From positions 1 to 43,125 of the forward strand of contig JALOOM010000058.1 in assembly GCA_025454395.1 (NCBI GenBank): a DNA stretch of 43,125 nt. Direction: 5' to 3'. Position numbers and translations under genes: made by a program. Positions 1 through 6,843 of this stretch are shown here, piece after piece; the stretch's first letter is position 1; every line of letters begins with the position of its first letter. The stretch is from Elainella sp. Prado103 (GTDB taxonomy: Bacteria > Cyanobacteriota > Cyanobacteriia > Elainellales > Elainellaceae). The notes beneath the pieces were generated by a model. That model did no database searches. It was not told the DNA's origin and saw only the letters and a program-made list of their open reading frames with translations.

Positions 1-655
1 GAGTCGCAGGGGGAGTCACAGAACTGGCAGGCTGATCAACCGATGGAAGCTGAGGTTGAACTGGCAATGGAATGTTGGAGGGTACAGGTAAGGGATCGAT
101 AACGGGTACAGGCGATCGAGCAGCCGGAGTTGCCCGATTAGAAAGAGCGGGGGCAGGAGTAAATTGAACTGGCGGGGGAAGCGGCTGGGACGTGTCGGAG
201 AGATCAAACTGCACACTCCAACTGGGAATGGGGGTTGCGCCTCGGAGAGCTGGATCAAGGGGTGAGACAGCCTCACTGGAATCGGCGGAATCTATATGGG
301 GTGCGTTAGGAACAATGGGGCGGGCAGGCACACCTCCATCAGGCATACCCTCATCCAATCCCCTTTCACTCTGATTCAGATCGGGCAGAGGAGGGGAGGG
401 GGGAGGGGGTAAGGCATTTGCTGCATTGTCCACTCCTACAGGGGCTTCACTGGCAATTGGTGGGATCGGTAACCGATCGGGACGGGGAGCAACGGCTGGC
501 CAATAACCATCAGATGATCGTTCCAGTTGAGTAGCAGCGATCGGTTCTGGGGTAACCACTCGATTGCCTGAAGTCCAAGCAGGAGAGGTAGCAAAGGCAG
601 GTTGGCTGCATAAAACAGTGGCCAACCCTGCGAAATAGACCAATATTTTTTTCAT
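1..655 (-). CDS. Pro-rich secreted protein, partial (C-terminus off the window)
   Basis: Open reading frame of at least 218 codons that starts at 655 and runs off the left edge, so its C-terminal part is unseen. The first 22 or so residues form a Sec-type signal peptide: KK, a hydrophobic stretch, then an A-F-A cleavage-like end. The rest is low-complexity and rich in Pro, Ala, Ser and Val, with no recognisable domain in the visible part. Its ATG overlaps the stop of the upstream lipoprotein gene (ATGA, 652-655), so the two are probably translationally coupled. Long Pro-rich secreted linkers of this kind often precede an envelope-binding or peptidase domain, but that is inference because the C-terminus is missing. 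Function unknown. Confidence 0.75.
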   Translation of the reverse strand, partial: MKKILVYFAGLATVLCSQPAFATSPAWTSGNRVVTPEPIAATQLERSSDGYWPAVAPRPDRLPIPPIASEAPVGVDNAANALPPPPSPPLPDLNQSERGLDEGMPDGGVPARPIVPNAPHIDSADSSEAVSPLDPALRGATPIPSWSVQFDLSDTSQPLPPPVQFTPAPALSNRATPAARSPVPVIDPLPVPSNIPLPVQPQLPSVDQPASSVTPPAT

Positions 656-1125
656 GATGGACTCAATAACTGTTCCAAAATCGATCGGGAAGGTTCAACC
701 AATGTCCAAGTTCCTTCTGGCAGCTTTCTAAGGGTGGCAAAGTGTAAATAGTCACCGGAGCCGATCGCCTGCCCCTGACGCACAGAGCCGAGACGCGGTT
801 GCTTGAGACCACAGAGGCGGAACAAATAAGCGGGGACTTCCGGGCTGGAAAACAGCACACAATCGGTGACATTAGGCTGGATTCGACCTGCAAAAGGCGC
901 ATATACTTTGCCACCCTTCAGATCGATCGAAATATCTCCTAACCCTGCGGCAATCCGATATGCACCGATCGCTTCTCCGGGCTGAAGTTGCCAAGATTGC
1001 TGAATTTGGATGGTGCGAACAGGCTCATTCACAGCCGGTGGTGCCACTGAACATCCGGCATGGGCTAATCCCAAACCCAATAGCATGATCGTGGATTTTC
1101 TACAGTTCCATCCCCACCGGCCCAT
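652..1125 (-). CDS. Lipoprotein with a degenerate LytM/M23-like domain
   Basis: 157 residues. The N-terminus has a hydrophobic segment ending in a lipobox, LAHAGC, with Cys at about residue 25, so an envelope lipoprotein is likely. Residues about 60-150 resemble the beta core of LytM/M23 endopeptidases: GDISID, then APFAGRI, then GQAIGSGDYLHFATLR, followed by a WTLVEPS end. In active M23 enzymes the last motif is HLHF and an upstream H-x(n)-D pair binds zinc. Here the first His of that motif is Tyr and no upstream His-Asp pair is visible, so it is probably catalytically dead, like EnvC-type regulators. It sits in an apparent operon and overlaps the next gene by four bases. The family assignment is by eye and only moderately sure. 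Confidence 0.75.
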   Translation of the reverse strand: MGRWGWNCRKSTIMLLGLGLAHAGCSVAPPAVNEPVRTIQIQQSWQLQPGEAIGAYRIAAGLGDISIDLKGGKVYAPFAGRIQPNVTDCVLFSSPEVPAYLFRLCGLKQPRLGSVRQGQAIGSGDYLHFATLRKLPEGTWTLVEPSRSILEQLLSPS

Positions 1126-1161
1126 GGTCTCGTCTATTCCTCATTGCAGGGGTTAACCCTC

Positions 1162-1197
1162 CATATATAGCACCATATATAGCACCCTATTTAGCAC
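1162..1197. repeat. 12-bp tandem repeat, 3 copies
   Basis: Three consecutive units of CATATATAGCAC (third copy CCTATTTAGCAC) in the about 100-bp spacer between the lipoprotein gene and the membrane-anchored protein gene. Confidence 0.85.
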
Positions 1198-1224
1198 TGG
1201 AACGCTGAGATGGAGCAGGGCAGC

Positions 1225-1623
1225 CTAGCGCAAAACACGAAATTGATACCCTGCGTATTCCTCACCCTCATAGAGCACAATCAGCCAGGTTTGAGGATCG
1301 AACGCCAGTTGGTATACCGATCGCTCAGCAGGCACACCGGCCCGCACTTCTAGAGGAGAGAGCATACAGTAGGGCATTTGCAAAATATTTTGCACAACGG
1401 TCTTGGTACCTCGCTCAGAGACGGTGAGAAAGGTGGCGAGCTGCTCCCGTGAAATAGCGGCTGTTGGCTGCACATCGCCCACACAATTTTCGGGTTGGCG
1501 ACGCTGTTCCATGGAGATGACTTCTCGCATATCCATGGTTAATCCAGCAATCACAGCAAGGGCACCACCCATTAAAAATAACCGCATTCCAATCTGTCGT
1601 TGAGGATCAAGTCGTTTCTTCAT
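1225..1623 (-). CDS. Conserved-looking single-pass membrane protein of unknown function
   Basis: 132 residues. It starts KKRLDPQRQ, then a hydrophobic segment at about residues 13-30 that should act as a membrane anchor, leaving a soluble extracytoplasmic domain of about 100 residues. That domain holds two Cys (in ENCVGD and PYCML) that could form a disulfide. The C-terminus is beta-rich (TWLIVLYEGEEYAGYQFRVLR). I do not recognise the family. Its start lies inside the 3' end of the 42-residue microprotein gene (17-nt overlap at 1607-1623), which supports co-transcription and coupling within the 3018-to-1 operon. Confidence 0.75.
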   Translation of the reverse strand: MKKRLDPQRQIGMRLFLMGGALAVIAGLTMDMREVISMEQRRQPENCVGDVQPTAAISREQLATFLTVSERGTKTVVQNILQMPYCMLSPLEVRAGVPAERSVYQLAFDPQTWLIVLYEGEEYAGYQFRVLR

Positions 1624-1735
1624 CGCGCCCTCCTTGCTTAGACTTGAGAGATGAGGTCACTTCAGCAGGTACCATTGAAGCGAAACAGGAAATGACGAAC
1701 AAAATCCAGGCAGCACCAAGTAATAAAGGGCTCAT
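1607..1735 (-). CDS. 42-residue membrane microprotein
   Basis: The frame stays open further upstream, but the natural start is the ATG at 1735. It forms an ATGA overlap with the stop of the upstream coiled-coil gene, and the residues before it read as antisense-like, Cys-rich shadow. The product has one hydrophobic helix (residues 3-21, LLLGAAWILFVISCFASMV) and a short charged tail ending GGRDEETT. It overlaps the downstream gene by 17 nt. Both overlaps suggest a genuine operon member, perhaps a small subunit of a membrane complex. No homologue is recalled, so the function is unknown. Confidence 0.6.
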   Translation of the reverse strand: MSPLLLGAAWILFVISCFASMVPAEVTSSLKSKQGGRDEETT

Positions 1736-3018
1736 AGTCTTCCTCCGAGTAATAGACCGATCATGATGGCAAACAGACGATAGCCCCAAGCAAATCCGAC
1801 ATGGGGTGTCAAGGTAGAACGATAAACAGCGAATAGGGCAGGTGTAATCATAATCAGAACACCAGGCAACCATAAAACAGGATAAATAGTGATGATGCTA
1901 TCTAGAACAACTCGAAGCACGGCAGCTCCGGCAATATGGAGCGCGATCGCTGGCAGAGAAACCGTGGTTTCCGAAAGCTCAATGGCACGAACACCACCTG
2001 AATGCAGATCAGATTTTTGGGAACGGGCGATCCGCGATGAGGTATCTCGTCGTCCTGACCCACGATCAGCTTGATGTCGGGCTGCCGATCGCCCGCGCCA
2101 GGGGAATCCTACCCATCTCAACAAGGCTCTTACCCCTCGCCAGGTGATCTGGAGGAGAGTACGCAGGAGAGCGCTGAGTAGACCGCCGATCGCGCCCACG
2201 GCACCCAGTCCAGTTAAGAAGAATTGCCAGATCGATCGAACGAGCTTGTGAATCACAGAAAACGGTAGTCGGAATCGTCTTGATCGAGCCATCGATGGAG
2301 GTTCTTCCATCTGCCAATCAATCAATCGAGTTGTCAGCAGTAATGTACCGTTATGATTTTGATCCACATAAGGAATCTCTGTGCTCGTATATTCACAGAT
2401 AGGCTCAAATTCCTGCTCAGAATCATTCTCCAGAGCTTGTTCAAACTGATCGGAAAGGGTGATCAACTCCTGAATCATTAATTCTTGCTGTTGGGACAGG
2501 GCATTAATCTGTTGAGCTTTGGCGGTCAGGAGTTGCTGCATTTGCGATCGATCCGTCAGTGGTAACCCAGTCGATCGGGATTGAGCATGAGGCTCCAGGG
2601 TGTCAGGATTGATCCAAGGGGTACTTGAAACGGGGGGACGAATGGGTGGCAAAGGAAAGCACTCGACAGTGCGCTGAGGCTTGTGCAGTGAGGAGGATGA
2701 GGATGACGGAGTGGTTTGGGAAGGAGCGGGAGGAATTGATGGACTTTCCGATCGCCGATCGGGTTTCTGATCTGCTTTTGGATCAGATGAACGGGCATGG
2801 GTTGGGGTGCGATGACTAACCTGAGGTGGGGAGTCAGCCTGGGGGTGTTCAGGAATCGTACGGCTACGGCTAATTTGTGGGGAGATCGGTGCGGTAATGG
2901 GAGGTGAACCGGGATGAGGTTCTAACAAAGTGACGGATCGCCGCGATTTTTCAGCGCGGATCGACTGAAGTTCGGCTTCAATAGCTTTGATTTCTGCTTG
3001 TGTTTGTTTCATAGCCAT
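1732..3018 (-). CDS. Coiled-coil, multi-pass membrane protein of unknown function
   Basis: 428 residues. Residues 1-25 form a short coiled coil (heptad-like Q/E/A/I). Residues 30-150 are a Pro/Ser-rich disordered linker with Ser runs. A second coiled coil follows around 155-200 (QQLLTAKAQQINALSQQQ and on). Hydrophobic segments lie near 255-300 and three more at about 355-425, so the C-terminus is embedded in the membrane and the N-terminus is probably cytoplasmic. It is the first gene of the minus-strand operon that continues through 1735, 1623, 1125 and 655. The architecture recalls scaffold or septum-type envelope proteins, but no family is recognised. An alternative start lies two codons in (3012). 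Confidence 0.8.
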   Translation of the reverse strand: MAMKQTQAEIKAIEAELQSIRAEKSRRSVTLLEPHPGSPPITAPISPQISRSRTIPEHPQADSPPQVSHRTPTHARSSDPKADQKPDRRSESPSIPPAPSQTTPSSSSSSLHKPQRTVECFPLPPIRPPVSSTPWINPDTLEPHAQSRSTGLPLTDRSQMQQLLTAKAQQINALSQQQELMIQELITLSDQFEQALENDSEQEFEPICEYTSTEIPYVDQNHNGTLLLTTRLIDWQMEEPPSMARSRRFRLPFSVIHKLVRSIWQFFLTGLGAVGAIGGLLSALLRTLLQITWRGVRALLRWVGFPWRGRSAARHQADRGSGRRDTSSRIARSQKSDLHSGGVRAIELSETTVSLPAIALHIAGAAVLRVVLDSIITIYPVLWLPGVLIMITPALFAVYRSTLTPHVGFAWGYRLFAIMIGLLLGGRL

Positions 3019-3097
3019 ACTTGCTTGAACGGGGACTGAGTTGGCAAGAATTGATGAACGATCCAGAATCGTTTTTGTTGTTATATCCAGGGTTTTT

Positions 3098-3180
3098 CAC
3101 AGGATGTTGGAGTCACAGGATGTTAGAGTCACAGGATGTTGGGGTCACAGGATGTTGAGGAACAGGATGTTGAGGAACAG
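3098..3180. repeat. 15/16-bp tandem repeat, about 5 copies
   Basis: Units of CACAGGATGTTGGAGT and variants: three 16-bp copies, then two 15-bp copies ending TGAGGA. Located 80 bp upstream of the coiled-coil membrane protein gene start. Confidence 0.9.
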
Positions 3181-5073: not shown

Positions 5074-5427
5074 GACTTGAACCCATGGTGGAGTGGGAGC
5101 AATCCCAGGACGGGATCGAGATCCATGCCGAGCAAGACTTCACCAGAAACTGGAATGAGGTTAACCTCTCTGCCAGTTCGATCGATTCCGGTTAGTACCG
5201 ATACCAATTGGGTCGATGCTATGGGGATCAATCCAGGGGACGGGTGATACGGCGTACAGCCTGACTCAGCAGTGTGATCGGCTCAGCCTTATTATATCCT
5301 TCCTGGATCGGATGCGGTCTGTTGCCCATTATCTGCCCATCATTCGGCTCATTCCGGCTTATTCCAGCTCATTACGGATTTGTTTTGGATTCTGGTTGAT
5401 ATGTCTGCTGAGTTATCTGGTGAGTTA
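5074..5427. other. Divergent intergenic region, PIN-TRAM / hemW
   Basis: About 350 bp that must hold promoters for both flanking genes. I see no strong hexamers, terminator or RNA gene. Small direct repeats (TTCCGGCTTATTCCAGCTCATT-like) occur near 5350-5372. Confidence 0.5.
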
Positions 5428-6843
5428 ATGGTTGGCTGGCCTCTGGCGGCCTATGTCCATATTCCCTTTTGTCGGCGACGCTGCTTCTATTGCGACTTCC
5501 CAATCTCTGTTGTGGGCGATCGACCTCCGCTATCTCAGCCCGATGGGTCGCGGCAGTTTGGTTCTATTGCCGCCTATGTAGAGGTTTTACAACAGGAAAT
5601 TCAAGCTGTTCGTGCAGCGATGCGGACTGGATGTCCTTCTAACCCGGCCAGTATTGACCCAGCCAGTATTGACCCAGCCAGTATTGACCCGGCCAGTATT
5701 GACCCGGCCAGTATTAATTCGACCAGTCCTCACCGATCGCTCAATTCTTCCTTAAGGGCAGCCCATCCCCCGTTGCAAACCGTCTTCTTTGGGGGAGGCA
5801 CCCCATCGTTGCTGACAGTCAACCAACTTGACCAAATTTTACAGCAGCTCGATCGCAGTTTTGGGATTGCGGCTGATGCTGAAATTTCCATGGAGATCGA
5901 TCCCGGCACGTTTGATCGAGAACGCTTACAAGGCTATCGATCGGCGGGGATCAATCGGGTCAGTTTGGGGGTTCAGGCGTTTCAAACCCATTTACTGCAA
6001 GCTTGTGGGCGTACCCACACCCGATCGGATATCGAACAGGCAGTCCGGTTGATTGAACAGGTGGGATTGACGAACTTTAGCCTGGATTTAATTTCTGGCT
6101 TGCCGCACCAAACCCTGGAGGATTGGCAAGCATCTTTGACGGCCGCCATTCAGTTGGCTCCTCCCCATTTGTCGATTTACGATCTCACGGTGGAAGCAGG
6201 AACCGCGTTCGATCGGTGGTATCAGGCTGGGGTGCAGCCATTACCGACCGATCAGCAAACAGCCACCATGTACCGCATGGCACAACAAAGCCTGACTGCG
6301 GCAGGATATCAGCACTATGAGGTCTCCAATTATGCTCAACCGGGCTTCCAGTGTCGTCACAATCGGGTCTATTGGCAAAACCAACCCTATTATGGATTTG
6401 GCATGGGTGCGGCCAGTTATGTGCAGCACCAGCGGTTTACCCGTCCTCGCAAACGATCGGACTATTACGATTGGGTACAAGCGTTTCAAACCTCTGGTCA
6501 AATTGATTGTCCGGTCACCCCAGCCGCAGAGCAACTGCTAGATACCCTGATGTTGGGGCTGCGCTTAGCAGAAGGCCTAAATATCGGCACTTTGATCGAT
6601 CGATTTGGTTTTGCCACGGTGCAGCAATTGCTCTTAGTGCTAGAACCCTATGTAGCCAAAGGTTGGGTGATTTTTCGCGATCCAACCCAGGAGCTACCAG
6701 CGTCGATCGAGCAGCTGGAGACTCTGGGGTTAGCGAGGCTGGAACACCGATCGATCGCCCTGTCCGATCCGGAAGGGTTTCTGTTTTCTAATCAGGTGCT
6801 GGCAGATTTATTTGAGCAATTTGATTTGAGCAGTTTGATTTGA
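5428..6843 (+). CDS. hemW: HemW-type radical SAM heme chaperone
   Basis: Radical SAM protein of the HemN/HemW family. The AYVHIPFC start is followed by C-x3-C-x2-C (CRRRCFYC) for the 4Fe-4S cluster, then FFGGGTPS, EIDPGTF, NRVSLGVQAFQ, a DLISGLPHQT strand, and the C-terminal HemN-like winged helix. The CxxxCxxC-DF form without the extra N-terminal Cys of true HemN points to HemW, which hands heme to target proteins. HemN activity cannot be excluded by eye. I chose ATG 5428 because it has GGTGAG four bases upstream and begins just before the first strand; 5401 or 5380 are possible. The 471 residues exceed the usual 380-400, partly because of a 15-bp repeat insertion near residue 72. Confidence 0.9.
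   Translation: MVGWPLAAYVHIPFCRRRCFYCDFPISVVGDRPPLSQPDGSRQFGSIAAYVEVLQQEIQAVRAAMRTGCPSNPASIDPASIDPASIDPASIDPASINSTSPHRSLNSSLRAAHPPLQTVFFGGGTPSLLTVNQLDQILQQLDRSFGIAADAEISMEIDPGTFDRERLQGYRSAGINRVSLGVQAFQTHLLQACGRTHTRSDIEQAVRLIEQVGLTNFSLDLISGLPHQTLEDWQASLTAAIQLAPPHLSIYDLTVEAGTAFDRWYQAGVQPLPTDQQTATMYRMAQQSLTAAGYQHYEVSNYAQPGFQCRHNRVYWQNQPYYGFGMGAASYVQHQRFTRPRKRSDYYDWVQAFQTSGQIDCPVTPAAEQLLDTLMLGLRLAEGLNIGTLIDRFGFATVQQLLLVLEPYVAKGWVIFRDPTQELPASIEQLETLGLARLEHRSIALSDPEGFLFSNQVLADLFEQFDLSSLI
5644..5718 (+). repeat. In-frame 15-bp repeat in hemW (5 copies of PASID)
   Basis: Five tandem copies of CCGGCCAGTATTGAC (variants CCA; last unit ends AAT) encode PASID four times and PASIN once. The repeat lies in an N-terminal loop between the radical SAM Cys motif and the GGGTPS strand, where extra length should be tolerated. 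Confidence 0.95.

Follow-up and report, generated by a model that had tools for sequence, protein, structure and literature searches.

Control of cell-wall hydrolases by catalytically dead LytM proteins is known for amidases, and EnvC, NlpD and DipM all carry an M23 domain without metal ligands and are presumed to act in hydrolase control outside the cytoplasm. DipM of Caulobacter has several autolysins as binding partners of its inactive LytM domain, which stimulates both the lytic transglycosylase SdpA and the amidase AmiC (PMC10336132), extending such control beyond amidases to a lytic transglycosylase. In Anabaena, septal nanopores are the work of AmiC amidases, one of which, AmiC1, may be activated by the LytM factor Alr3353 (PMC6463045). 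Here, we analysed a five-gene operon (P1–P5) at one end of a 43,125-nt stretch of DNA from the cyanobacterium Elainella sp. Prado103 (assembly GCA_025454395.1, contig JALOOM010000058.1, positions 1 to 43,125; the whole stretch is called the window), in which a degenerate, presumably inactive LytM/M23 protein (P4) is encoded together with a protein predicted to carry a lysozyme-like domain (P5). We put the probability at roughly one half that the operon specifies a membrane-organised peptidoglycan-cutting complex in which P5 is a muramidase controlled by its dead M23 partner P4. In such an operon the dead M23 protein and the lysozyme-type enzyme that it probably targets would be kept in one conserved unit, an instance of a known idea with a partner that has no name.

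Compared to EnvC, NlpD and DipM, P4 is short, with little beyond the domain, has lost the HxGxD motif by deletion, and is co-encoded with a putative lysozyme-fold protein. The operon shares with the Anabaena Alr3353/AmiC pair the logic of a LytM factor and a hydrolase as well as a link to filamentous growth, but that pair is amidase-based (PMC6463045). The genes, and the sole gap within the operon, are as follows.

P1, positions 3018-1732, minus strand: 428 aa, with a Pro-rich and coiled-coil N-terminal part, a conserved stretch around 'CEY' and C-terminal hydrophobic segments at ~358-425.
P2, positions 1735-1607, minus strand: 42 aa, a microprotein with a single transmembrane (TM) segment that overlaps P1.
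P3, positions 1623-1225, minus strand: 132 aa, an N-terminal TM anchor and a small domain with invariant Cys47 and Cys86.
P3–P4 intergenic gap, positions 1126-1224, minus strand: contains a 12-bp tandem repeat at 1161-1197.
P4, positions 1125-652, minus strand: 157 aa, a probable lipoprotein with a putatively degenerate LytM/M23 domain without metal site.
P5, positions 655-2, minus strand: 218 of 444 residues lie here, with a signal-peptide-like start and a Pro-rich linker; the frame is open at the contig edge.

All five reading frames are present on the minus strand of positions 1-3018, in the head-to-tail arrangement that an earlier note on this DNA had described, and overlap occurs at three of the four junctions (4 nt, ATGA, at P1/P2 and P4/P5; 17 nt at P2/P3), with 99 nt separating P3 from P4. 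Position 1 of the window is base 1 of its contig (C33), so P5 is truncated in the window. A profile of the P5 C-terminal domain had a single match in the same genome (G000), at positions 53-571 of contig C129, and C129 opens with the same 17 bases that close the minus strand of C33. The shared 17 nt, the reading frame, the presence of a single copy and the order of genes in relatives together point to C33 and C129 being joined within P5, which is completed on G000:C129:1-697, ending at 697, to a total of 444 residues. The assembly break falls in the Pro-rich linker, at the 17-nt shared end. The earlier note had advised viewing the rest of the operon to the left of base 1, which is a contig end; P5 continues on C129 and is the last gene of the operon, as the next frame of at least 90 codons (C129:737-1375) runs in the opposite direction. 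The earlier note had described P5 as a Pro-rich secreted protein; the visible part is only the N-terminal half and the conserved C-terminal domain lies beyond the contig end, which is why the lysozyme-fold domain had been missed.

Judged by its sequence, P4 is a degenerate M23/LytM protein that lacks the metal site and is presumably inactive. Over the 37 rows of the P4 alignment (A1, which leaves out L006, where P4 is broken into two frames), 21 positions are invariant, Cys25 is found in 36 rows, and Cys89 and Cys105 are conserved; P4 is probably a lipoprotein. Comparison with hhalign to an M23 alignment of ten rows, including the Leptolyngbya boryana plasmid protein BAY59276 and two wrongly cut rows (L121_0, L123_0), gave a probability of 88.9 (E 2.4e-6), with P5 and P3 as controls at 0.7 and 0.3. 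The P4 hidden Markov model (HMM) found BAY59276 itself (E 4.1e-8), the M23 domain of which is matched by Pfam at 7.6e-12 and the gene of which is followed by two small genes and then by a P5 relative, BAY59273. In a joint alignment, the stretch bearing HxGxD is deleted in P4 and kept in BAY59276, and the HxH motif of P4 is degraded: one of the 37 rows keeps the first His (replaced by Tyr in 23), and 21 keep the second. These matches and motif losses bear out the degenerate LytM identity that the earlier note had assigned to P4. A direct match of P4 to LytM/M23 (PF01551) was not found in Pfam, and profile searches against PDB returned nothing credible for P3, P4 or P5; the 'Cake' entries listed there for P4 were rejected, as they were single stretches with i-Evalues of several hundred. 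BAY59276 (L062:2843-4213) combines its intact M23 domain with DUF2927, a pairing that hints at a wall-related role for the latter.

The C-terminal domain of P5 was modelled with AlphaFold2 (AF2) from an alignment of 23 cellular and viral relatives, with a predicted local distance difference test (pLDDT) of 90.0 and a predicted template modelling score (pTM) of 0.88. In a Foldseek search of PDB with this model, ranks 1-11 were all phage-type or GH24 muramidases or endolysins, 6et6 being first with a probability of 0.99. Structure comparison with VIA gave Z 8.3 to 6et6 and P22 lysozyme (root-mean-square deviation 4.0-4.1 over 136-139 residues), 7.7 to the muramidase domain of SpmX (6h9d) and ~6 to T4 lysozyme, alongside the lytic transglycosylases MltE and MltF (7.3-8.0), some chitosanases (6.8-7.7) and receptor entries scoring up to 6.8, which we take to be T4-lysozyme fusions. 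The model helix 20-29 is closed by Glu29, and five T4 lysozyme rows align model position 19 to T4 residue 1; Glu29 would thus occupy the position of T4 Glu11 if the first helix is ungapped. Glu29 and Asp47 were compared with T4 Glu11 and Asp20, an equivalence taken from aligned ranges and not from coordinates. Glu29, Asp47, Asn54, Gly56 and Ser59 are invariant, in 33/33 rows of alignment A2 (which leaves out the incomplete or broken domains of L006, L018, L022, L024 and L029) and 23/23 rows of A4. P5 therefore has, by prediction and with moderate strength, a lysozyme fold, and from this fold and the invariant residues we infer that it cuts glycan chains, with Glu29 as the presumed catalytic residue. 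Like the GH24 and phage-type muramidases (P22 and T4 lysozyme, 6et6, the SpmX domain), the modelled domain has an invariant Glu that ends the first long helix before a small sheet region. Unlike them, P5 has no sequence-profile match and carries a signature of its own, AEGTR...GHxDPG...NxGxxS, and its operon copies mostly have a signal-like start and a Pro-rich linker.

Among the nearest folds to P5 is the muramidase domain of SpmX, which in Caulobacter polarity is reported to bind peptidoglycan and is not known to cut it, and P1 is rich in coiled coil and P4 is without a metal site, all of which would suit a different explanation, namely that P5 is a peptidoglycan binder of lysozyme fold that does not cut and that the gene set is a structural organiser of the septum or pole. 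However, Glu29, Asp47, Asn54 and Ser59 do not vary among copies of P5 from cells, plasmids and phages, which fits catalysis, as does the position of one phage copy beside amidase and endopeptidase genes, and we regard a purely structural role as unlikely, if worth keeping in view.

What the analysis shows is the synteny, the co-distribution, the relation of P4 to M23 with its metal-site loss, the fold predicted for P5 with its conserved acidic residues, and the fusions. For synteny, 36 stretches of 12-20 kb were merged to 31 genome units; matching P4 or P3 was the ground for choosing all but one of them, which fixes the P4 count by construction. Homologues were present in 29 (P4), 25 (P3), 25 (P5) and 24 (P1) of the 31 units, the next commonest family reaching 8, and where present together the genes follow the order P1, P3, P4, P5. 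Among 60 relatives, 45 carried P4; across 290 genomes of the class it occurred in 117, spread over 13 family labels, P3 in 118 and P5 in 127. P5 was present in 116 of the 117 P4-positive genomes, and P3 and P4 share 116 genomes (compared by eye). Because P1 was detected in only five of the 11 P3-bearing operons of one comparison, in one of them (L116) ~3 kb away, P3-P4-P5 is the core of the unit, and P1 is a frequent, non-obligatory member or has diverged beyond detection. There were departures from the arrangement: P4 lacked a nearby P5 in L048, L051 and L057, P5 lay on another contig in L103, L047 was without P1, and in genomes G026 and G008 P4 was not flanked by P3 and P5, which lie together elsewhere. 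In these two genomes (G008 and G026; L056, L045) P4 stays with P1, and P3 and P5 are on another contig, a natural split of the unit.

The gene set is thus conserved in order in many cyanobacteria, often with P1, and, as the earlier note had suspected, none of its genes can be named: Pfam and NCBIfam gave no family name for them, and no paper describing the operon was found among open-licence papers. P1, P3, P4 and full-length P5 had no PADLOC match at E up to 0.01, and a defence system was rejected on that basis.

We used HetR (PF03574) as a marker of filamentous lineages in the 290 genomes; a comparative study places hetR, patU3 and hetZ in the smallest gene set shared by filamentous genomes (PMC2821919). 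P4 was present in 113 of 149 HetR-positive genomes and in 4 of 141 HetR-negative ones (G041, G056, G238, G284), so that HetR occurred in 113/117 P4-positive vs 36/173 P4-negative genomes. By family, P4 was found in 11/20 HetR-positive vs 2/21 other families (p 0.0025, assuming that the highest label seen, 41, is the number of families). The HetR table was compiled by hand from listings, and its totals of 117, 149 and 127 agree. Co-occurrence with filamentous growth, which the earlier note had raised, is thus seen with this marker. Overall, the unit is widespread, belongs to no named family and follows a marker of filamentous cyanobacteria, and the operon supplies gene candidates for the opening or splitting of septal wall in trichomes outside the Anabaena model.

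Relatives of the P5 domain were also found on mobile elements, in 2 phage and 6 plasmid records by tblastn and in 20 loci by a scan of viral contigs. The 27 mobile loci (L059-L085) include the near-identical pairs L070/L071 and L059/L079. In a Krakvirus record the P5-type domain ends a 990-residue LysM protein near a terminase gene, and in a Microcoleus phage its neighbours are amidase, LD-endopeptidase and M23 genes. The latter (My-WqHQDG, L060) has P5-type matches in three neighbouring frames, within a dense wall-lysis cluster. An M23 domain was detected in the stretch of 8 of the 27 loci (L060, L061, L062, L064, L070, L071, L077, L082), using an HMM built from the same ten-row M23 alignment, and none was detected in the stretches examined for the other 19; in six of the eight (L060, L061, L070, L071, L077, L082) it shares one frame with the P5-type domain. 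Pfam confirmed the M23 domain in L061 and L070, and the record annotation did so in L060. In the P5 tree, which is midpoint-rooted, shows no support values and does not fix the direction of transfer, the M23-linked L062 and L070 form the nearest group outside the cluster holding the operon copies, and L065, L066, L067 and L069, without M23 nearby, fall inside that cluster. With P4 as query, tblastn returned no plasmid record and the viral scan confirmed no relative; no P1 or P3 relative was detected in loci L059-L085, L117 and L118 at E up to 0.01. The phage and plasmid fusions (L060, L061, L070, L077) resemble P4-P5 in having the same two domain types, in one chain or in neighbouring genes, but HxGxD and HxH are retained in the M23 halves of BAY59276 and L070, unlike P4. 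The existence of relatives with an intact M23 half makes it possible to trace how the active site was lost.

A role comparable to that of the VirB1-type enzymes of conjugation systems may also be considered, in which the operon, kept on the chromosome, would open the wall for a machine of the envelope, be it for pili, secretion or DNA uptake. P5 relatives are plasmid-borne and, in 3 of the 6 plasmids, fused to or near M23 genes, and one of these plasmids has a relaxase ~23 kb away. However, no family other than P1, P3, P4 and P5 lies beside the operon in more than 8 of the 31 genome units (the flanking families are unannotated), and we judge service to such a machine to be quite unlikely.

P3 has two invariant Cys (47, 86) and, by hydropathy, an N-terminal TM anchor; a search of PHROGs matched it to a family of unknown function (E 0.015). 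A BamE/SmpA fold, suspected from the sequence pattern, was rejected, as the hhalign probability against E. coli BamE was 2.4 and PF04355 was found in 0/20 genomes. In G056, P3 and P4 are fused as one 299-residue frame, followed by P5. This fusion lies at L105:4395-5291 in a HetR-negative genome of 2.9 Mb, and its P4 match is weak (2.1e-19); being diverged, the copy may help in rooting the family. The P3-P4 fusion, the P5-M23 fusions of mobile elements and the co-occurrence of the three genes suggest that P3, P4 and P5 form a complex. That P5 is instead a weapon, hitting competitors or autolytic, with P3 and P4 as periplasmic inhibitors, is very unlikely: P3 and P4 are indeed small, membrane-held, provided with paired invariant Cys, encoded with a lysozyme-like protein and fused in one genome, but P4, with 21 invariant positions, has no immunity-like variability, and no defence-library match was found at E up to 0.01.

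P1 is presumed, from an alignment of 24 rows and hydropathy, to be a cytoplasmic organiser with a C-terminal membrane anchor. Its best Pfam match was Metal_resist (E 0.0069; 17 bits vs a cut-off of 29.2), taken as a chance similarity on coiled coil. An assignment to SepT was rejected, as the TM segments of SepT are N-terminal (PMC10653889) and those of P1 are C-terminal; an assignment to FtsX was rejected, as Pfam gave no FtsX match at E up to 1. Pfam models of FtsX, FtsE and amidases likewise had no match to P1, P3, P4 or P5 at E up to 1, the rest of the genome not having been searched for FtsEX or amidases. The specifically EnvC/FtsEX-like scheme of which the earlier note had been reminded thus found no support, as no further recurrent partner was seen either, and the parallel is a loose one because the likely hydrolase, P5, is inside the operon.

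P2 appears, from its codon pattern, to be a real microprotein. Of the 32 distinct operons in which P1 and P3 are adjacent, 16 have a P2-like frame of 28-63 residues, with a single TM segment and a start resembling LG/FG..W, that begins no more than 30 nt from the P1 stop (15 copies found by script and one, L005, by eye). Nine copies compared pairwise over codons 2-20 showed 398, 221 and 114 differences at codon positions 3, 1 and 2, respectively, the pairs not being independent; the differences are mostly at the third position, as expected of a translated frame. In L002 the P2 frame is broken, in an assembly of ~4-fold coverage.

Taken together, these data fit a membrane-organised complex in which P5 would be a secreted muramidase of lysozyme fold on a long Pro-rich tether, and P4 a lipoprotein with a catalytically dead M23/LytM domain, docking to P5 and controlling it. 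P3 would be a membrane-anchored partner holding P4, the P3-P4 unit being placed in the periplasm from hydropathy and the conserved Cys, and P1 and P2, in the lineages that have them, would be a coiled-coil membrane part that positions the complex. The M23-muramidase pairs of phages and plasmids may be the ancestors of P4-P5, or the two may have arisen from a common source, the peptidase half of P4-P5 having been disarmed and retained as a regulator. Peptidoglycan would most likely be opened at defined sites of the trichome, either septal or junctional pores or points of trichome fragmentation. Enzymatic activity, binding, membrane topology, control and site of action are the parts of this reading that we infer.

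Several observations weigh against a P4-controlled cutting complex with a role in filaments. The two P4-M23 tests are not independent, because BAY59276, the protein matched by the P4 HMM, was also a row of the M23 alignment used with hhalign; the P4 HMM matched only this one of the plasmid and viral M23 proteins and none of seven M23 loci of its own genome at E up to 10. P4 was modelled poorly by AF2 (pLDDT 39.5, from seven close rows), and a metal-free M23 protein need not be a regulator. For P5, the Foldseek E-values were weak (best 0.094), the VIA Z of 8.3 is near the middling level of that tool, at which a widely shared arrangement may account for the score, and P5 is not identified as a lysozyme by any sequence profile, Pfam and NCBIfam having no match to full P5 and PHROGs none below E 0.2 for the domain. 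P1 was undetected in 6 of the 11 P3-bearing operons noted above, and so is not obligatory. The HetR association follows phylogeny, relatedness inflating the genome-level numbers; four P4-positive genomes lack HetR, and 36 HetR-positive genomes (16 in one family, f32) lack P4, so the operon is not needed for filaments as such.

In its boldest form, the proposal of a P4-controlled muramidase complex would make the operon a lysozyme-based counterpart, in other filamentous lineages, of the pore-drilling seen in Anabaena. A phage or plasmid muramidase-M23 pair might have been domesticated early in cyanobacteria, its de-metallated peptidase becoming the controller, and might, with the coiled-coil membrane protein and the microprotein, cut glycan strands for trichome pores or break points outside the amidase-based Anabaena model; this full scenario is speculative, and we consider it unlikely.

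Tandem Repeats Finder returned 38 rows, mostly short-unit arrays, in the 43 kb window. Besides the array in the P3–P4 gap (1161-1197), these include one array upstream of the operon (3097-3172), one (5642-5715) inside a HemN-like open reading frame (5380-6843), the translation of which repeats ASIDP, and others elsewhere.

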